Below are positions 25,913 through 36,167 of a DNA stretch of 64,000 bases, one piece after another. This stretch comes from a virus. Numbering within the stretch: position 1 is the first letter of the stretch; every line of letters begins with the position of its first letter. The position numbers and the translations under genes are program-made. The stretch lies in IMG/VR virus record IMGVR_UViG_3300035698_016988, positions 1-64,000 of that record; one strand, given 5' to 3'. The notes below the pieces were generated by a model. The model had not been told where the DNA came from. It saw only the letters and a program-made list of their open reading frames with translations, and made no database searches.

Positions 25913-27739
25913 ATGATTCAATTTGAAAAAATTATTCTAAAGAACTTTATGAGTTTCGGTAACGTACCGGAATCTATTCCGCTTGATCGTGATCCGTTGA
26001 CGTTGATCTTAGGAAGAAACCAAGACAAAGGTGAAGACTCAGGTGAAAGAAACGGTGTCGGTAAATCCAGTATCGTTATGGCGCTGCACTTTGCTTTGTT
26101 CGGTATTTCGGTTGGTAACAAAATTAAGAAGCCGAGGCTAATCAATAACATCAACCAAAAGAATCTTGAAGTAACTCTGAAGTTTACAATCGGAACGAAC
26201 TCTTACACGATTAAAAGATTCCGTAAACCAGAGAAGCTAGAGTTTTACGTCGACGATCACTTGGTAAATGACCAGGGCGGTGACGAAGGCCAAGGCGAGA
26301 TGGGAAAGACCCAAGAAGAAATCAATCGTGTAGTCGGCATCACTCCTGATATGTTTAACCAATCAATTTTCTTGTCAGTCATTACTGAGCCGTTCTTGCT
26401 ATTAGGATCCGGCAAGCAACGTGAATTGATCGAAGAACTTCTAGGAATTACTCAATTATCTGAGAAATCAACTACTCTCAAAGAAATGCTAAGAGAAACA
26501 AAGACTCAACTTGATAAAGAAACGTTCAAAATCAAAACAGTCGAAGAGACTAACGCCAGGGTTAGAACCAATCATGAAAAGTCAATTCAAAACTTGATGT
26601 CCAGAGAGACACGTTGGGAGAATGAGCATAGGTTCGAACTCGACGGGATTGAAAAAGAAATCGCTGAATACAGTGAGATCAGTATCAACCAAGAAATTAA
26701 AAATCACGAACTCCTAGCTGAATGGCTAGAAAAGAAAGTGGCACAAGATCAATTATTGTCTGAACTCGAAAGAACTAATATCGAAAAGGGTCGTCATGAT
26801 CGAGCAAAGCAACAAGCTTTCAAGCGTTTAGAAGATTTGGCAATTGATTTAGAATCAGCTGAAGAACAAAAATGCCCTACTTGTGGTCAGGACGTGCATG
26901 ACGATAAACACGATTCTGTCCTTGGCGGCATCGTTGAAAAAGTTGAGTTTTACGAAAAGCAACTCAGAGAAGAAGACGATAACCTGGCACAAATTGAGGA
27001 ACGCTTACAAGAACTAAGCGAACTAGAATTTGACCTAGGTAAAAAACCTGAGGTATTCTATACCGAAGTTAAGGATGCATACAAACACAAAAGTACGCTG
27101 AAATCTTTAAAAGATGGATTGAAATCTGAGAAATCAAAAACCAATCCTTACTCTGAGCAAATTGCTTCCCAACCAGATGCACCGTTGCAGGATATCAATT
27201 ATGAATTAAAGGATGATCTCATTCAACTTAGAGACCACCAAGAATTCCTTTACAAACTCTTAACCAGCAAAGACTCATCAGTTCGAAAACATATTATTAA
27301 CCAGAACATCAGTTACTTGAATGCTCGCTTAGGTATGTATCTCGAGAAACTAGGGTTGCCACATGAGGTTGAATTCTTGAATGACCTCAGCACTGAAATC
27401 ACAATGCTCGGTAATCAATATGACTTCTTGAGTCTATCTGCGGGTGAGCGGGCACGCTTGACTTTGGGACTTATTTTTGCTTTCCGTGATGTTTGGGAAT
27501 CACTAAATCAAACAATGAACATCTTCTTTGTTGACGAATTTCTCGACACGGGGTTAGATACAGCGGGTGTAGAATCCGCGCTTAAGACCTTGAAACAATT
27601 GGGTCGAGAACGCGCAAAGAACATTTTTATCATATCACACCGTGAAGAGTTAATTTCAAGATGTTCAAATGTATTAACGATTGTAAAAGAAGGCGGCTTC
27701 AGTCAACTCGAATGGCAAAGAGACGAGGAAGAAGTATGA
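25913..27739 (+). CDS. 46: Recombination endonuclease subunit gp46 (Rad50/SbcC-like ATPase)
   Basis: ABC-type ATPase partner of gp47. Walker A is NGVGKSS (about residues 47-53) preceded by LILGRNQ. Two coiled-coil stretches flank a zinc hook CPTCGQ (about residue 320). The signature LSAGERARLTLGL (about 508) and Walker B NIFFVDEFLD (about 536) follow, then FIISHREEL as the switch His. At 608 aa it is slightly longer than T4 gp46 (560). The ATG begins one base after the gp47 stop. Its 3' end converges on the small gene at 27748. Confidence 0.95.
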   Translation: MIQFEKIILKNFMSFGNVPESIPLDRDPLTLILGRNQDKGEDSGERNGVGKSSIVMALHFALFGISVGNKIKKPRLINNINQKNLEVTLKFTIGTNSYTIKRFRKPEKLEFYVDDHLVNDQGGDEGQGEMGKTQEEINRVVGITPDMFNQSIFLSVITEPFLLLGSGKQRELIEELLGITQLSEKSTTLKEMLRETKTQLDKETFKIKTVEETNARVRTNHEKSIQNLMSRETRWENEHRFELDGIEKEIAEYSEISINQEIKNHELLAEWLEKKVAQDQLLSELERTNIEKGRHDRAKQQAFKRLEDLAIDLESAEEQKCPTCGQDVHDDKHDSVLGGIVEKVEFYEKQLREEDDNLAQIEERLQELSELEFDLGKKPEVFYTEVKDAYKHKSTLKSLKDGLKSEKSKTNPYSEQIASQPDAPLQDINYELKDDLIQLRDHQEFLYKLLTSKDSSVRKHIINQNISYLNARLGMYLEKLGLPHEVEFLNDLSTEITMLGNQYDFLSLSAGERARLTLGLIFAFRDVWESLNQTMNIFFVDEFLDTGLDTAGVESALKTLKQLGRERAKNIFIISHREELISRCSNVLTIVKEGGFSQLEWQRDEEEV

Positions 27740-28621: not shown

Positions 28622-29074
28622 TTAAATCTTTTTCTTGTAAAGTTTGACCAATTCTTTTTTGGTCTCTTTTCCAGAAAGTTCTATATTATTATGTTCAAGG
28701 AGGATCGTTATTTGGTCCTCCTTTTTCATATTCTTAAATTTGGTAACTTTTTTATTCTTATGTGCTGGATGTTCGTAATCAGTTTGATTAGATTTGAGAT
28801 AAGATAAATGATCTTCCAGCCATCCAATATAATCAGTTTCTAGGCTCACGTGCCCAGATCGTCTAAAACGATAAAATAAAATTCCTTCCAATAAATTGCA
28901 TCTTCTGCACAAAACCCCACGGACTAAACCCGAATCGTGATTGTGGTCAACGTGGCGGTTCGTATTATCTTCAGTCAATAAATCTTCAGAGCAAATGCCG
29001 CATTTATAATCTTGTGCGACGAGCAACTCATCACGAATTCTTGCGATATCTTTTGATTTAAGAATTGTAACCAA
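28622..29074 (-). CDS. 49: Recombination endonuclease VII gp49
   Basis: gp49 cuts Holliday junctions and branched DNA before packaging. The zinc site and His-Me core are clear: CGICSEDL, HVDHNHDSGLVRGVLCRRCN, then an LLEG segment, RFRRSG and DYIGWLEDHLSYLKS, all aligning with T4 gp49. The frame is open to TTG 29131 (169 aa). I favour the TTG at 29074 (150 aa; T4 157 aa) because GGAG lies five bases upstream and the length before the first Cys then equals T4. The gene stands alone on the minus strand between a terminator and the late box of its divergent neighbour. Confidence 0.9.
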   Translation of the reverse strand: MVTILKSKDIARIRDELLVAQDYKCGICSEDLLTEDNTNRHVDHNHDSGLVRGVLCRRCNLLEGILFYRFRRSGHVSLETDYIGWLEDHLSYLKSNQTDYEHPAHKNKKVTKFKNMKKEDQITILLEHNNIELSGKETKKELVKLYKKKI

Positions 29075-29170
29075 GGGATCTCCATTTGAATTAATGTCAG
29101 GTAATGCCACAAGTGACCCATCTCCCAGCAAACCTATTAAAAGCTGTCCCCGACATTATATTTATCAACT

Positions 29171-29203: not shown

Positions 29204-30082
29204 ATGAGCGAGATCAGGCTAAAGAATGCCCTTTCACAAATGAAAAACGAAGCTGTTTCGGAACGTAAAAATCATATCCGAAAGCATCGAAATCAACAAG
29301 GTGAGGCATGGTCAGTTGAATGCCAACTGGCTGACCCGCAAGACGCCAGACGAATGAACGGATTCATGCAACATGAATTGGATCTATATAATCAAATCCT
29401 AGAATATTTCAACCCAACTGCAAGAACTGCTCCAGAGATCTTCTCGGCTTTTACCGAAGAGCATATCAATTTGTTTGCATTCTTAGCACAGCACGGTATC
29501 GATATTCGAAGAATACGAAAAAGCAATCTACCAGATGTTATGAAAGAATTCGAAACGATTCTATTCGACGGTTCTATTAGTGAAAGAATGAAAATCCTAA
29601 TGGAATCAGTAGGCGGATCTTATTCGATGCTTGAATCAACCAAGAAAGCAATGGCTCGTGAGCTAATGAAATTCTATGCTGAGGACGCAAGAGTACGTCA
29701 GCAAAGAATGCCAAAAGGCGGTGACCAAGAATTTAAAACCCCACCTAAGTCTTTGGCACAGCAAACCCCAATCAGCAAGCGTCACTTGCAGATGAAAAGA
29801 GACCAAGTCAAAATCAAATTCAACGAAAAAGAAGACCGTTCGGAAATTTCGATCCCTTATTGTTCTTCACCGATTTACGTGAAAGAAGTTGATCTATCAG
29901 ATCGTAATTCTTGGAATATTATGATCGTTCACCAAACACCAAATGTAATGGTCCTACCAGGATCACCTTGGGTTTTAGACTTCAGGGGCATCAAGAACGA
30001 TTACTTGGTTGATTATTTAGACAACCGTAACGATAAGTCAGGAGTATTCTGGCATGCCAAATCAAACAGGAGTGGAAGATAA
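29204..30082 (+). CDS. Unknown late protein (292 aa)
   Basis: No family recognised. The first 190 residues are helical and charged (NALSQMKNEAVSERKNHIRK, ARELMKFYAEDARVRQQRMP); a basic Gln/Pro/Lys linker follows; the last 90 residues look like a small beta domain (EISIPYCSSPIYVKEVDL, NSWNIMIVHQTPNVMVLPGS). There is a single Cys in that domain. A perfect late box and GGAG precede it, so late expression is likely, suggesting a structural, assembly or late-regulatory role. The next small gene starts inside its end. Confidence 0.7.
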   Translation: MSEIRLKNALSQMKNEAVSERKNHIRKHRNQQGEAWSVECQLADPQDARRMNGFMQHELDLYNQILEYFNPTARTAPEIFSAFTEEHINLFAFLAQHGIDIRRIRKSNLPDVMKEFETILFDGSISERMKILMESVGGSYSMLESTKKAMARELMKFYAEDARVRQQRMPKGGDQEFKTPPKSLAQQTPISKRHLQMKRDQVKIKFNEKEDRSEISIPYCSSPIYVKEVDLSDRNSWNIMIVHQTPNVMVLPGSPWVLDFRGIKNDYLVDYLDNRNDKSGVFWHAKSNRSGR

Positions 30083-30203
30083 TGTCACAACTTTTAGAAA
30101 CTTGCTTTTGCTTAGTGCAGGCCTAGTAATGAATCCAAATAACGGAAATATGGTTATTATTTTCTTAACTCGATATTCGGAAGAGCCAACGGACGCCGAA
30201 TAA
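30054..30203 (+). CDS. Small hydrophobic protein (49 aa)
   Basis: ATG at 30054 with AGGAG nine bases upstream, overlapping the end of the preceding gene by 29 bases. One hydrophobic stretch (NLLLLSAGLVM, then NMVIIFL) could be membrane-associated. Ends in PTDAE. The stop lies five bases before the -35 of the RNA promoter, so this gene and the RNA are separate units. Function unknown. Confidence 0.45.
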   Translation: MPNQTGVEDNVTTFRNLLLLSAGLVMNPNNGNMVIIFLTRYSEEPTDAE

Positions 30204-30208
30204 TCTTA

Positions 30209-30237
30209 TTGACGCTCGCAGTTTAGATATATAGTAT
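30209..30237 (+). promoter_or_regulatory. Sigma70-like promoter of the large RNA
   Basis: TTGACG (30209-30214), 17-base spacer, TAGTAT (30232-30237). Start site expected near 30243. No open frame follows, so the product is likely a non-coding RNA. Confidence 0.65.
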
Positions 30238-30242
30238 CAGAT

Positions 30243-30960
30243 AGTTAGAACATAGTGACTCAGATATGGTGGTATACCACCGACGGAAGGGATGCCTAGG
30301 TATCAGGAACGTCGTAAAACCCGCGTCACACGGGACCGCAATGAAAACTTCCAGGAAGAGGCACCATCCGAACTGGGACAGACGGCGGAATATTTACATG
30401 CACTCAATGAATCGGCGAGGTATGTGATAAGGATTAAGATTTTAATCTGAAATAGGTCGCGGATGCTGATGGCATCTTTGAAAATGAAGAACCATATCCA
30501 AAAATTAGAAGGCACAAATTAGGCACAACACTACCATAGGCAAAAAAATCAGGTGAAATGAATACCGCAAGGCACAAATCAGGGCGACGACCCGTAGGCA
30601 CAAGGATTTGGATCATGCTCTGTCTCGAGACACTGACAACATGAACTCCGTTAGAAACTTTGAAGGTATGAAGTAATAACGGACGCCGGTTTTGGCTTAG
30701 CCACAAAACCTAGAGCGATAGGCGGGATTCGGAAACCCCTCGTTTGTATAAACTCTACATACCCTGACCATACGATGTACCATACGGAAATCGTCCTTTT
30801 GCCCTATTTCCAGTTACTTGGAGGCGGGGGCAAAAGGACTGGACTCACCCAACGGAATGTGTCTTGTTCAAGCCTCATCCAATAGACTAATATGACTTGA
30901 AATGGTTTTAATGATGTTTCTAGAAAAAGTTACCAATGAAAACTGTTAGGTTTTCATTAG
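30243..30960 (+). ncRNA. Large structured non-coding RNA candidate (~720 nt; GOLLD/ROOL-like class suspected)
   Basis: From 30204 to 31013 no plausible gene exists, yet the plus strand has its own promoter and a dense set of hairpins: GGTGG/CCACC (30268-30281), CCCG/CGGG (30320-30334), GATTAA/TTAATC (30432-30447), GATGC/GCATC (30462-30476), GGG/CCC (30582-30593), GTCTCGAGAC (30622-30631), GGTTTTG/CAAAACC (30688-30710) and a perfect 12-bp stem GTCCTTTTGCCC/GGGCAAAAGGAC (30793-30804 with 30828-30839). A T-loop-like GGGATTCGGAAACCC follows the GGTTTTG hairpin. AGGCACAA occurs four times (30510, 30521, 30570, 30596). A 9-bp hairpin at 30935-30958 may be the 3' end. Size, phage origin and many stems recall GOLLD and ROOL RNAs; I cannot compare to their consensus here, so the class is a guess, the structured-RNA call is stronger. 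Confidence 0.7.
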
Positions 30961-31013
30961 ATCTTTAGATCTTAGATAATTGTTATATTGTTTCACACTT
31001 GGAATCTTTGCGA

Positions 31014-31240
31014 CTATCGTGAGGCTTTCTTCATTGCTCTATGATATTCTTCGTAGGCATCAACCATTGATTGTCTATCTTCTCTGGTAGAGAGCCACAA
31101 TTCTGTCCAACCAATTCGGCCTTCCATATACATCATTATCTGGCTAATCTCTGACCGGATAGCTTTTGCCTCATCTTCGATTTCAGTGAGGAAACCGGAA
31201 ATTCCCTCATCGTCTAGGAGCAAAAGCTTTAGTCGAAAAA
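31014..31240 (-). CDS. 51: gp51-like frame, probably expressed by -1 frameshift from gp26
   Basis: The -1 frame opens just after a TGA at about 31251 and runs to 31014. It has no ATG and no ribosome site; the first possible start is a TTG at 31223, with nothing like a Shine-Dalgarno. The product segment (about 75 residues) is helical and acidic then basic (ISGFLTEIEDEAKAIRSEIS, ELWLSTREDRQSMVDAYEEY, HRAMKKASR). The position directly behind gp26 is that of gene 51 (hub assembly catalyst) in T4-like phages. The slippery heptamer and stem-loop at 31161-31244 would fuse it to gp26, giving a product of about 353 aa, as in tail-assembly chaperones of other phages. Confidence 0.65.
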
Positions 31241-31244
31241 ATTT
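31161..31244 (-). promoter_or_regulatory. Programmed -1 frameshift signal
   Basis: On the minus strand the heptamer A AAT TTT (31244-31238) is in frame with gp26, three codons before its stop. About nine bases later a 9-bp perfect stem AGCTTTTGC/GCAAAAGCT (31228-31220 with 31169-31161) encloses a loop with a second hairpin (TGAGG/CCTCA). This is the standard layout of bacterial and phage -1 sites, and the -1 frame is open to 31014. Confidence 0.7.
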
Positions 31245-32074
31245 GAGGGATCAAATGTTAAATTTTCTTCGACATATTCATGTTGACAATGAGTACAAAC
31301 ACAATTCTGTGAATTCGGAACGCCGGCTTCATTAAGGCTTTTGATTTTAAATCGGATATTGTCTACTTCTTTTGTATCAAGTTCTTTGACCATAGGTTCA
31401 ATATGTTTTCTTTCTTTAACGAAAATTCCGTCAGGGGTTTGAACTCCCATTACTGAATCACAAACCAACTCGAAGTTCATCTTAACCATTTTGTCAAAAC
31501 TATTTGCAAAAGTTCTAATCTTTTCTTCGTCGGCCATTTCTTCTCGGTCGACTAATTGCATAATTTTTGTTTGTTCGAACTGAGCTAGGTTTGACTTTGT
31601 GCTGGTCTTAAAATCGTGCGGTTTCATTACCAAAGTCAAACCGTTTGATAATTCGATAGAGTTTTCGTCATCTAAGAAAGTCATTGTATCGATAGCCATT
31701 CGAATTGATCGGTCAAATTCGTTTATTTCATTACATTCAGGGCAAGTTGATTTAAAATCAATTGTATCTCCGTAAGACGCAAATCTAATTGCTAGCATCA
31801 AAGCGGTTACATCAGGAACAACCAACATTGAAGGATCTCCTTTAATTCCCGGAACACATGATTTGATAACGTCCAACATTCCTTGACCGTTTAGCAAGGC
31901 GTCTGGGCTTTTTAATGAAAGGTCATCAGATGCGGTCATAGCCTTAATATCGAGTTCATCGTTATTATTCAATTCCAAAAAGTTCGGAGGATAGAATAAT
32001 CCTCTTGAAGGTAAAGGAATTGAAATTTTAGTCTGGCGACCATAACCGGCGAGTGGATTTGCTGTCTGTGACAT
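31229..32074 (-). CDS. 26: Baseplate hub assembly protein gp26-like
   Basis: 281 aa from the ATG at 32074, chosen because GGAG lies six bases upstream (the frame extends to a TTG at 32086). Features: IPLPSRGLFYPPNFLELN near the N-terminus and IKAMTASDDLSLKSPDALLN after it; a zinc-ribbon-like pair CPECNE (about residue 125) and CTHCQH near the C-terminus (about 262), plus VKSCVPGIK-type segment. This is the T4 baseplate family containing gp26. It is expressed from a late box at 32110-32120 facing away from the tape-measure gene. The C-terminal codons hold a frameshift signal. Confidence 0.78.
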   Translation of the reverse strand: MSQTANPLAGYGRQTKISIPLPSRGLFYPPNFLELNNNDELDIKAMTASDDLSLKSPDALLNGQGMLDVIKSCVPGIKGDPSMLVVPDVTALMLAIRFASYGDTIDFKSTCPECNEINEFDRSIRMAIDTMTFLDDENSIELSNGLTLVMKPHDFKTSTKSNLAQFEQTKIMQLVDREEMADEEKIRTFANSFDKMVKMNFELVCDSVMGVQTPDGIFVKERKHIEPMVKELDTKEVDNIRFKIKSLNEAGVPNSQNCVCTHCQHEYVEENLTFDPSNFFD

Positions 32075-32088
32075 CGGGTTCTCCAAAT

Positions 32089-32127: not shown

Positions 32128-34365
32128 ATGGCTTCTGCAGACGATATTTTAGATGGCTTAGAAATGTATGCTAGCCGTGCGGGCGATTGGTCAACGGAAG
32201 AAACTGCGAAAGATATGCTTGCAGTTATCACCGAGATTGCTAAAAAAGCCGGCGTTTCACAGAAAACCTTAGAAAATACTGCCAAGAAGTTCGAAAAACC
32301 TTCGGCGAATATAAATGAATTCTCCAAACAAAATAAGACTTATCAATCAAAGATTTCGGTTACTGTTCAAGAACTTAATAATTCGTTAGGATTGGGAAAA
32401 ACTAAGTTCGGTTCTATGCTAGGAAATGTAGACAACCTCGGTAATTCAATCAGATCCGGAACTGGATTATTCTCGAAATTGAATCCGGTTATGTTAGGTC
32501 TTACTGGAGTTTTTGTTGCAGTTACCGCAGCAGTTAGTACCTTGGTTGAATATATAATGGACTCCGTGAACGTGTATATGCGTTTGCGTGATGTTGGTAT
32601 TACTTTTGCTGGCGGTCTGGTTGAAATGCGATACGCAGCAGCTAACGCGTCAATGGGATTTGAAGAGTTTAGCAAAACACTAGCAGAAAACTCAAAAGTA
32701 ATTACAGCATTCGGTGGTGATGGCGCTAGACAGTTTAGTATTTTGTCTAAAGCAGCAAGAGACACAGCAACAATGCAAAGAGGGTTGGCATTTACAACCG
32801 AACAAGTGAATGAGTATTTGTTAGATTATTTGGAAGTACAACGCCAGACAGGTCTATTGGATCGACTGTCAGCCGGCGAGACAGCTAGACGCACTTCCGA
32901 TTACTTAGAGTCGTTAGATATGTTCTCACAAGCGTTAGGTAAATCTAGAAGCGAACTTGCTGAGTCTAGTAAAAGTATGACTGAGGGTATTCGGATTCAA
33001 GCAGGTCTTAGAGCTATGCCTAAAGAGATCAGAGATACCGTTATGGATAACTTGAAAAGAGCTGGTCCTGCTTTTGATGCTATTGGTCCTGAATTCGGTG
33101 AAATGGTAAAAGAAATGATAGCAACAGGCGGTCGGCCGGTATCAGAAGCTGCGAAGATGTTTATAGCAGCTTCACCTGAACTCGGTTCACAAGTCATGGC
33201 TCTTGCTGACAGAATGGGTAAAACTAGACTTTCTAACGAAGATTTCCGAGAAGAAATGATAAAACTCAAAAAGAATGTAGGCCCCGTGGCTGACGATATG
33301 TCCCAACTCGTTGCTCAACTCGGTGAGTCCCAACCAGCCTTTGCTAGTTTTATGGGTTCACTATTGAATATAGAACGAATGAAAATAGGAGGGAAAGGGG
33401 AAGTTGATCCGTTGGTTAGATTGATGTTGAAACTTGGTGAAACCATGAAATCTATTACCGGTGCATTTGACTCTATGAAGGCAAGTATCTTCGAAAATCT
33501 AGAAGGACCTCTAGAGCAATTTGCAACATGGATGAATACAAAAGTTCTACCTGGCTTGAAAACATTTTTTGATGAAATTATAGGAATTTTTCAAGGCGAA
33601 GGTGATTTTGGCGACAAACTAGTCAATGCCTTTTCTCATGTTTTTGATAGATTAGCAGAAACTCTCGGTCCTATTCTTTCGGATATGATAACTTTTATGG
33701 TTGATTCTGTTTTAAGAAGTTTGCATATTGAAACCGATGCGATGGAACAACGAAAGAAGTTCAGAGAGAAAGAAAAGGAAATTCAGTCCGGAAAAAGTAT
33801 GTCAGCGGAAGAATTTAAAGCAATGGCAAGAGACTTGATGATTGATGTTAGAGACGGTGATGTTTCCAAAGCTGATGCAAATAAAATGATGCAGAAAGTC
33901 CGTGATGCTCAATCAGAATTATTGAAAAGACAAGGCGACGGTTTTAACCCAGTCGGTAATATGAATGCATATAATGAAAATATTTATGCAAACCCTAACA
34001 CACAGCAAAGTTCTATGCGCCCAGTCGGTAATATGAATGCATATAATGAAAATATTTATGCAAACCCTAACACACAGCAAAGTTCTATGCGCATCGGTCG
34101 CCGCGTCACCCGAACCGGCCCAAGCTTTGCCCACGCCGGTATCAATAATGCAATCCCGAAACAACAGAATACTCAAATGCCTAAGGTAACTCCAACAAAA
34201 CCTGACATTAAAGAAGAAGAGAATGGTTTCGGGTCGACTTTGATCAATAAAATTTCAGAACTAATTGATGTGAGTAATGCAAACTTAACTCAGAATGCGG
34301 CCTTGGCTAGGAAACAAAAAAGAGCTACCGATAAAGCCGGTGAAAAAGTAGAAGGATCGTTCTAG
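32128..34365 (+). CDS. Tape-measure-like tail protein (gp29 role)
   Basis: 745 aa. The N-terminal 110 residues are helical; a strongly hydrophobic segment (MLGLTGVFVAVTAAVSTLVE, about residues 121-140) resembles the membrane-active region of tape-measure proteins; long helical stretches follow to about residue 520, then a charged part, an exact duplicated 24-residue unit (about 608-655), and a helical end. It lies opposite gp26/51 and before the portal. T4 gp29 is 590 aa and sits in the hub gene cluster. No sequence match to gp29 is visible by eye, so this rests on composition and context. A late box at 32090 and a GAGG ribosome site precede it. Confidence 0.55.
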   Translation: MASADDILDGLEMYASRAGDWSTEETAKDMLAVITEIAKKAGVSQKTLENTAKKFEKPSANINEFSKQNKTYQSKISVTVQELNNSLGLGKTKFGSMLGNVDNLGNSIRSGTGLFSKLNPVMLGLTGVFVAVTAAVSTLVEYIMDSVNVYMRLRDVGITFAGGLVEMRYAAANASMGFEEFSKTLAENSKVITAFGGDGARQFSILSKAARDTATMQRGLAFTTEQVNEYLLDYLEVQRQTGLLDRLSAGETARRTSDYLESLDMFSQALGKSRSELAESSKSMTEGIRIQAGLRAMPKEIRDTVMDNLKRAGPAFDAIGPEFGEMVKEMIATGGRPVSEAAKMFIAASPELGSQVMALADRMGKTRLSNEDFREEMIKLKKNVGPVADDMSQLVAQLGESQPAFASFMGSLLNIERMKIGGKGEVDPLVRLMLKLGETMKSITGAFDSMKASIFENLEGPLEQFATWMNTKVLPGLKTFFDEIIGIFQGEGDFGDKLVNAFSHVFDRLAETLGPILSDMITFMVDSVLRSLHIETDAMEQRKKFREKEKEIQSGKSMSAEEFKAMARDLMIDVRDGDVSKADANKMMQKVRDAQSELLKRQGDGFNPVGNMNAYNENIYANPNTQQSSMRPVGNMNAYNENIYANPNTQQSSMRIGRRVTRTGPSFAHAGINNAIPKQQNTQMPKVTPTKPDIKEEENGFGSTLINKISELIDVSNANLTQNAALARKQKRATDKAGEKVEGSF
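33949..34092 (+). repeat. Perfect 72-bp tandem duplication
   Basis: Two identical in-frame 72-base units (33949-34020, 34021-34092) encode 24 residues each (PVGNMNAYNENIYANPNTQQ then SSMR). No differences are seen between copies, so the event is recent or the copies are kept equal. Confidence 0.95.
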
Positions 34366-34418: not shown

Positions 34419-36167
34419 ATGGCATCATGGAAACGTCACTATCGTTTAGCTTCAAAAGAAGCTAGAATGAATTTATACCGAAATAAGGATGATGCAGGGT
34501 ATGAACCAACCGGTTCTTCTAAAAATTACCAGTCTTTCCTTCCAGAGGTATATGCAGGTTTTCCAAACAGAATAGACCGTTTCCGTCAATATGATATGAT
34601 GGAAAATGATCCAGAGATTAACGCGGCTATGGATATCTTAACAGATTTCTGTACTCAGAATAATGACGACGACGGCGGCAACCCTTTCCGTATTGAGTTT
34701 GGTAACGATACTCCGGATACGGTTATTGAAACTATTCAATCAATTCTCAAGGGCTGGGTGAAACTTAATAACTTGGACAGAAGAATTTTTGATATTGTTC
34801 GTTCAACTTTGAAGTTTGGTGACTATTTCTTTGTTAGAGACCCGGAAACATTCGAACTATACCCAGCGAACCCGTATAATATCGAAAAGGTTGTGGTTGA
34901 TGAATCCCGAGGAAAAGAAATTGAGCAATACTTCATTAAAAACTTGGAGTTAAACCTTCAAGGGCAAGTAGCAACTGCTGCAGTTGCTACAACCAATAAC
35001 TATGCAATTTCCGGAACAGCAGCTACTACCAACCTAACCGGTAGTCAAGGAACGACAGGTGGCGGCACTAACTCACAAATGGGTGGGTCGGCGTCAAGTA
35101 GATTTGCTAACAATCCACAATCGTTTGCTGTTGGGGCTGAAAACGTCGTCCATGTTTCTATGAACGCAGGCGACGATCCTAACTGGCCATTCGGTACTTC
35201 TGTTCTTGAGGCGATTTACAAAACCTACAAGCAGAAAGAATTGCTAGAAGATGCGATTATCATTTACCGTATTCAACGTGCACCGGAAAGACGAGTATTT
35301 AAAATCGACGTTGGAAACTTACCGCATCACAAAGCTATGGCTTTTGTTGAACGTATGAAAAACGAAATGCACCAGAGAAGAATCCCAACAAGGGACGGAT
35401 CTGGATCTAATAGTTTTTCACTTATGGACACAGCATATAACCCGATGTCGATCCTAGAAGATTTTTATCTTCCAGTTACTGCAGACGGTCGTGGTTCTGA
35501 TATTACCACGTTGCCTGGTGGTGAGTCACTCGGTCAAATTGATGACTTGAGATTCTGGAACAATAAACTAATCAGAGGTTTGAAAATTCCTAGCTCGTAT
35601 CTTCCGTTTGGTCCAGATGACGGAGCGCAGACATTTAATGATGGTAGACTAGGTCAAGTATTTGTTCAGGAAATTAGGTTCGCAAAGTATTGCCAGAGAC
35701 TGCAGAATAACTTTGCTCCAACTTTTGACGCTGAATTTAAAAAGTTCTTAGAATACAAAGGCTACAATATCGACATCACTGATTTTGAAGTTCGTTTCAA
35801 TAAACCGATGAACTTTGCAATCTGGACTAAGATCGAAATGATGAACTCTTCGATTAGTCTTTACACTCAGATGGCTGACCGCCCAGAGATTTCTACTCGT
35901 TTGGCTATGGAAGAATTCTTGCAGTGGGATGATGAAATTATTGCTAGAAACGCTAGAATGTGGAGAGAAGAAAACCCAACAAAACTCAAGGGTGTAGCTT
36001 CACTTGTAGCAGATGATGACATGGCAGACGGAGCACCGGGACTACAATCGGTTGGTGTTGGTTTGCCGGGCGAAGATGAAGACTTCGGAAATGAGGAAGG
36101 TTTAGACAGTCCGTTAGGTGGCGAAGATGAAGACACTGAGGACGATAACGATGAGGAAACGATCTAA
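34419..36167 (+). CDS. 20: Portal protein gp20
   Basis: The dodecameric portal starts head assembly and is the DNA gate. 582 aa (T4 524). Family core: YDMMENDPEINAAMDILTDF (about residues 61-80), GDYFFVRD, and the C-terminal region DDLRFWNNKLIRGLKIPSSY followed by LPFGPDDGA. An Ala/Thr/Gly/Ser-rich insert (about residues 185-230) is unusual. The acidic C-terminus (EDEDTEDDNDEE) is frequent in this family. AAGGAG six bases before ATG. Overlaps the next gene by one base. Confidence 0.93.
   Translation: MASWKRHYRLASKEARMNLYRNKDDAGYEPTGSSKNYQSFLPEVYAGFPNRIDRFRQYDMMENDPEINAAMDILTDFCTQNNDDDGGNPFRIEFGNDTPDTVIETIQSILKGWVKLNNLDRRIFDIVRSTLKFGDYFFVRDPETFELYPANPYNIEKVVVDESRGKEIEQYFIKNLELNLQGQVATAAVATTNNYAISGTAATTNLTGSQGTTGGGTNSQMGGSASSRFANNPQSFAVGAENVVHVSMNAGDDPNWPFGTSVLEAIYKTYKQKELLEDAIIIYRIQRAPERRVFKIDVGNLPHHKAMAFVERMKNEMHQRRIPTRDGSGSNSFSLMDTAYNPMSILEDFYLPVTADGRGSDITTLPGGESLGQIDDLRFWNNKLIRGLKIPSSYLPFGPDDGAQTFNDGRLGQVFVQEIRFAKYCQRLQNNFAPTFDAEFKKFLEYKGYNIDITDFEVRFNKPMNFAIWTKIEMMNSSISLYTQMADRPEISTRLAMEEFLQWDDEIIARNARMWREENPTKLKGVASLVADDDMADGAPGLQSVGVGLPGEDEDFGNEEGLDSPLGGEDEDTEDDNDEETI

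Follow-up and report, generated by a model that had tools for sequence, protein, structure and literature searches.

Comparison with related phages indicates that a stretch in the genome of an uncultured virus encodes a real, folded non-coding RNA of about 740 nt, conserved in those phages. The stretch lies in the 64-kb window analysed here, which is part of a 74,621-base uncultured virus record and contains T4-like structural genes, and its RNA is most likely a divergent type within a family of large RNAs. Judging by the sequences, T4-like phages in IMG/VR hold these large, mostly undescribed RNAs downstream of, and antisense to, the gene for a gp26-like baseplate hub. Taken as a whole, the explanation that we favour, namely a conserved stand-alone RNA of about 740 nt that has its own promoter, is a divergent member of the hub-slot family and acts in trans, has in our estimate a probability of about 0.6.

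The RNA stretch is bounded by a plus-strand gene that ends at position 30082 and by the minus-strand gene for a 69-amino-acid protein (Table 1). Between the predicted 3' end of the RNA and that of the hub gene, which is encoded on the other strand, there are about 250 nt, and this is the slot that is typical of the class described below.

Table 1. Features of the window, in order of position; the ends of the RNA and the promoter are predicted.
Feature	Position	Strand	Remarks
SbcC-like nuclease subunit gene	25913-27739		
Sigma70-like promoter, TTGACG-17-TAGTAT	30209-30237	+	Hexamer positions and spacing equal in L005
Large structured non-coding RNA	30242-30980	+	About 740 nt; 71-73% identity to L005 4112-4825
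Best conserved 5' domain	30268-30395	+	Up to 92% identity per 50 columns
Hairpin GGATGCTGATGGCATC then TTTGAAAATGAAG	30461-30476	+	Conserved; one compensated pair
Region with four AGGCACAA	30510-30603	+	Exact copies at 30510, 30521, 30570 and 30596
Hairpin GGTTTTGGCTTAGCCACAAAACC	30688-30711	+	From folding and two-sequence consensus
Putative twin loop 1, ACCATACGGAA, core ACGGAA	30779-30789	+	Core common with twin loop 2
Long hairpin, 12-bp perfect stem GTCCTTTTGCCC/GGGCAAAAGGAC	30793-30839	+	Arms 30793-30804 and 30828-30839; kept in L005 and L004
Putative twin loop 2, ACCCAACGGAA, core ACGGAA	30847-30857	+	
3' hairpin AATGAAAAC..GTTTTCATT and palindrome AGATCTTTAGATCT	30935-30972	+	Hairpin 30935-30958, palindrome 30959-30972; likely 3' end
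Gene for 69-aa protein	31014-31223	-	Convergent with the RNA; 47-48% identity in L004 and L005
T4 gp26-like baseplate hub gene	31229-32086	-	PF12322, phrog_150; syntenic marker
gp20-like portal gene	34419-36167		

The portal search of IMG/VR recovered a pair of identical contigs that both run across the RNA (L001 and L002), a diverged homologue (L005) and a third, partial one (L004), whose contig ends inside the RNA; only three window-type sequences, one of them partial, are known. By blastn, 653 bases of the RNA region align with L005 at 73% identity, and about 800 bases do so at 71%, whereas the flanking genes are only 66-68% identical, and Smith-Waterman local alignments of the window with L005 and with L004 each beat 300 of 300 shuffles. 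The first-pass annotation had seen no credible genes between positions 30204 and 31013, and this holds: the ORFs there measure 52-90 amino acids, and none is intact in the 73%-identical L005, where stops occur in the matching frames. Because no frame survives and the changes relative to L005 show no triplet pattern (2 of 17 indels have a length divisible by three, and substitutions occur in each of the three phases without third-position bias), coding is excluded, and a coding or decayed gene was rejected as a candidate.

Several other differences and similarities are seen in these contigs. A recombination endonuclease VII-like gene (PF02945; window 28622-29131, minus strand) is 66% identical in L005. 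Directly upstream of the L005 RNA there is a gene for a Tad2-like protein (PF11195, anti-Thoeris; L005:3772-4080, plus strand), which is absent from that place in the window. The L005 portal gene (L005:8099-10909) is interrupted: about 1 kb, perhaps an intein or a homing element, separates the part that matches residues 1-373 from the part that matches residues 344-568. A 745-aa structural protein of the window contains two copies of the 24-aa repeat PVGNMNAYNENIYANPNTQQSSMR (33990-34180), and L001, otherwise identical to the window, apparently has one copy fewer.

Single-sequence folding is insufficient evidence by itself, with MFE z-scores that are weak and strand-unspecific (-2.84 on the plus and -2.38 on the minus strand), and it is the two-species alignment that is decisive. 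The consensus fold of the window and L005 contains 141 pairs, 30 of which have changed on both sides. Comparative folding with related phages had been proposed as a check on the initial reading of this region, and it came out in favour: the alifold energy of the same two sequences has a z-score of -6.9 relative to column shuffles that keep conservation and gaps, and doubly compensated pairs number 39, against 20.3 +/- 3.3 in the shuffles, the count being higher than the 30 of the consensus fold since settings differ. The z-score of the alignment on the minus strand is nearly equal, so that the strand was assigned from the promoter and from the order in which promoter and 3' hairpins occur. The large structured RNA that had been annotated with a predicted promoter of its own is thus supported by the L005 identity, by compensated pairs and by the aligned promoter.

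Transcription would start at the sigma70-like promoter and end at the tandem 3' hairpins. The promoter-like site had been called good; it is present, and aligned with TTGACA-17-TAGTAT in L005 within upstream DNA that has otherwise diverged between the two phages, but it scores only 9 of 12, and 6 such sites were found where shuffles lead one to expect 2.5. The L005 site is better, at 10 of 12. In the 5' domain, GGACCGCAATGAAAAC and TCCAGGAAGAGGCACC are both identical in L005, and the four copies of AGGCACAA are exact, as had been noted, with L005 having repeats of the AGGCA/AGGCAAATCAGGCA type in their place. The perfect 12-bp stem is likewise just as first described. The 11-base repeat AACGGACGCCG does occur exactly at 30188 and 30678, but its first copy is upstream of the promoter, and the repeat is missing from L005. 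The candidate 3' hairpin has fared better, as it covaries in L005, where it reads ATGGGTCAC..GTGATCCCAT, the stem being retained with changed letters; the palindrome is also found in L005 and L004, and AGATCTnTAGATCT follows the hairpin in the window, L005 and L004 alike.

The slot next to the hub gene was surveyed by a search with an alignment of the hub protein, which gave 80 loci, chosen by similarity to a small alignment and hence providing no estimate of prevalence among all T4-like phages. At many of these loci an ORF-free stretch of 360-1050 nt adjoins the hub gene on its downstream side, and the stretches are mutually related, in groups. We built a covariance model, R1, from a segment of about 150 nt in the 3' domain of ten loci, with the window excluded. 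At E < 0.01 it matches 42 of the 44 loci that were chosen, the other two giving no match; it also finds 72 of the 73 virus loci among the matches listed for one 18-base pattern; the pattern lies inside R1, so that the latter result is partly built in, and most of the matches cover the whole model. The R1 class is present on more than 100 IMG/VR contigs (at least 110). Doubly changed paired cells number 133 in the chosen set, against 43 in shuffled and at most 31 in slid controls, and 188 in the pattern-derived set of matches listed, against 61 and at most 45, respectively. This is a real RNA class with strong covariation. Its place is equally well-defined: among the listed pattern matches, which were not selected by position, the RNA lies 0.4-3.4 kb downstream of the hub gene, on the opposite strand, at 57 of the 58 loci where a hub gene is within reach.

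A broader model, R2, adds L078, L079, L133 and L142 to this class, and a second RNA type (L069, L070, L073, L076, L093, L162 and others) has a very stable consensus fold. Of the hub loci, 54 have 3.3 kb or more of sequence on the downstream side, and one or the other type is found at 46 of these, a count in which a few loci are assigned because they are nearly identical to one that is matched, and L099 has an E-value of only 0.05; several of the remaining hub loci have other ORF-free stretches. Large ORF-free stretches in the slot that neither model matches over the full length are found at L075:6565-7581, L083:3385-4232, L087:6431-7160 and L012:3377-4178, and these are probably more RNA types. 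A DNA search of cultured phages with the RNAs of the window, L005, L012, L134, L093, L111 and L106 gave nothing real; in bacterial genomes the portal search found nothing, and the pattern of the R1 class was found there as the bare 18-base word only, with no support from the model.

One piece of these RNAs is already known. The Rfam family Polynucleobacter-1 (RF01718, 141 nt) matches 18 of the scanned loci (L106, L112, L098, L128, L144, L169, L188, L195, L197, L202, L212, L218, L224, L227, L230, L231, L235 and L239), just 5' of the R1 domain, which indicates, on the evidence of these matches, that it represents the 5' portion of a larger phage RNA, which would continue into the twin-loop domain. 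Rfam therefore covers a fragment, the 5' part of one subgroup, and not the complete phage RNA. In the 2010 paper the sources of Polynucleobacter-1 were Burkholderiales and fresh water or estuary, and the motif was tabulated with a 'y' that we read as possible cis-regulation (PMC2864571). In the window RNA the Polynucleobacter-1 model has no match, either at the gathering score or at E <= 10. The alternative that the first-pass annotation had left room for, an undescribed class, is borne out by this slot, where large RNAs reside and of which Rfam knows just the 141-nt piece.

The R1 class has a peculiar 3' architecture, in which two loops flank a long hairpin (e.g., L134:7392-7544, minus strand). 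Aligned by the model with no requirement of identity, the seven-base cores of the two loops are identical within the RNA in 66 of 67 cases in one set and in 35 of 41 in the other. Between phages, about a dozen versions of the core occur, and shuffling the second loops among RNAs leaves at most 33% of the pairs identical. Within the RNA no cis partner of the loops was found by complementarity or by mutual information; other columns of the full-length alignment have mutual information with the core of at most 0.35, compared to about 1.1, and because the core finder in this test required identity, its information lies solely in how the core compares with the other columns. We propose that the twin loops are two sites for one trans partner, which would differ between phages; such a partner would account for two loops that vary jointly, with no other site of the RNA following suit. 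A similar word flanks the long hairpin in the window type, ACGGAA twice in the window and in L004 and GCGGAA twice in L005, as the rule of the R1 class would lead one to expect, but among the hairpins of the window 16% have a 6-mer common to both flanks, so that this putative signature is weak by itself.

Whether the window RNA belongs with the twin-loop class has to be judged with care. In place, orientation and size it agrees with the class, its long hairpin is similarly positioned, and the twin word agrees weakly. R1 and R2 have no significant match to it, the best score being 6.7 bits (E of 0.02 in a search of 821 nt) at a different element; an nhmmer profile of the L069-type RNAs found nothing in the window; and Smith-Waterman alignments of the window with the other types are not significant given the number of comparisons (at best, 7-8 of 300 shuffles). 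Exact-pattern scans for window-type relatives returned only the window's own contigs and L005, plus L012 and chance matches. The slot RNA of L012 shares GGACCGYAATG and CACTGACAAC with the window, in the same order, an arrangement seen in 0 of 2000 shuffles but chosen post hoc, and the longest word common to L012 and the window alone has p = 0.05; judging by these words, L012 may be a distant window-type relative, or a bridge. With the models and the pairwise alignments negative, membership of the window RNA rests on place and architecture, and we do not file it as a proven member of the class; a divergent type of the hub-slot family is its most likely status.

Large ornate RNAs are rare. GOLLD is an ornate phage RNA of more than 800 nt, in which the 3' part is conserved and the 5' part variable, and its expression goes up during lysis; ROOL, of about 660 nt, is a phage RNA of unknown function that forms an RNA-only cage; both make closed cages and are often found near tRNA islands (PMC12286853). 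In phage ICP1, a non-coding RNA of about 800 nt between gp139 and gp140, also of unknown function, is the most abundant transcript (PMC7567579). The window RNA resembles GOLLD in being large, ornate and phage-borne, and ROOL and the ICP1 RNA in being a phage RNA of similar size. It differs from GOLLD in that sequence and covariance matches are absent and its neighbour is a syntenic baseplate hub gene, not tRNAs; from ROOL, likewise, in covariance and genomic setting; and from the ICP1 RNA in its neighbours. The ICP1 RNA was considered as a member of the class and rejected, as neither R1 nor R2 matches at its locus (L166).

By analogy with the GOLLD and ROOL cages and with the abundant ICP1 RNA, a folded RNA that acts in trans would be the simplest reading of the hub-slot RNAs. 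In the proposed mechanism, the RNA, in whose family the 3' domain has a long hairpin with a copy of one loop on either side, would self-assemble like GOLLD or ROOL, and each of the two identical loops would bind the same partner, which would differ from phage to phage. That it works in trans as a folded scaffold, probably an RNA-only oligomer of the GOLLD and ROOL kind, is a conjecture we would bet against, if not heavily. Somewhat more credible, yet still tentative, is the broader proposal that the slot holds an unrecognised superfamily of ornate RNAs, unlike GOLLD, ROOL and OLE, with duplicated phage-specific loops that evolve in concert and dock one trans partner, the window RNA being a divergent type.

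A folded trans-acting scaffold has one serious competitor, which we consider unlikely, though far from negligible: a regulatory RNA or decoy, in which the twin loops would sequester a host or phage RNA or an RNA-binding protein, either by base-pairing with it or by mimicking one of its binding sites, with no need of an oligomer. Two identical loops per RNA that co-change between phages and have no internal partner are what such a decoy would display, but the RNA is much larger and more ornate than a sponge requires, and the versions of the core are too different for one fixed protein motif, such as the GGA of CsrA. The remaining explanations are improbable. A cis element, i.e., a long leader, a 3' UTR or read-through antisense control of the convergent hub gene, is suggested by the position of the RNA downstream of and antisense to that gene and by the 'y' of Polynucleobacter-1. 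The next downstream gene is, however, on the other strand, which rules out a leader; the gene for the 69-aa protein is preceded by two 3' hairpins; and in relatives the hub can be as near as 0.4 kb or as far away as 3.4 kb. The odds are equally long for a structural or assembly RNA, such as a scaffold for packaging or tail assembly comparable to phi29 pRNA; the fixed place among baseplate and head genes would suit this role, but cultured T4-like phages with related portal genes match none of the seven RNAs searched, and T4-type assembly thus appears to have no general need for them.

Slighter still is the chance of a divergent GOLLD or ROOL missed by the models, even with similar length, phage origin and, in GOLLD, the combination of conserved 3' and variable 5' parts. 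The first-pass annotation had suggested a new member of this kind and a model search to verify it, and that search speaks against the suggestion: with Rfam 15, nothing reaches the gathering score anywhere in the 64-kb window; the GOLLD, ROOL, OLE and HEARO models have no match at E <= 10 in the window RNA or its L005 homologue, nor do GOLLD and ROOL in L134; and there are no tRNA genes in the window, whereas GOLLD and ROOL often adjoin tRNA islands. Identity with GOLLD, ROOL, OLE or HEARO was accordingly rejected for lack of any covariance-model match on the window RNA, L005 and L134. A freshwater-1 match in L005, at 17.7 bits against a cut-off of 72, was treated as chance. A decayed gene or functionless spacer, for which one could cite the missing ORF and the restriction of the RNA to uncultured phages, is already contradicted by compensated pairs and by conservation above that of the neighbour genes, and has hardly any probability left.

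The hub-slot RNAs add a further set to the large ornate RNAs such as GOLLD and ROOL, and in many of the T4-like phages in IMG/VR their place is fixed. The twin-loop core, changing jointly between phages, is a testable handle on what such RNAs bind. If the superfamily reading is true, the hub slot would hold a phage RNA machine unlike GOLLD, ROOL and OLE.
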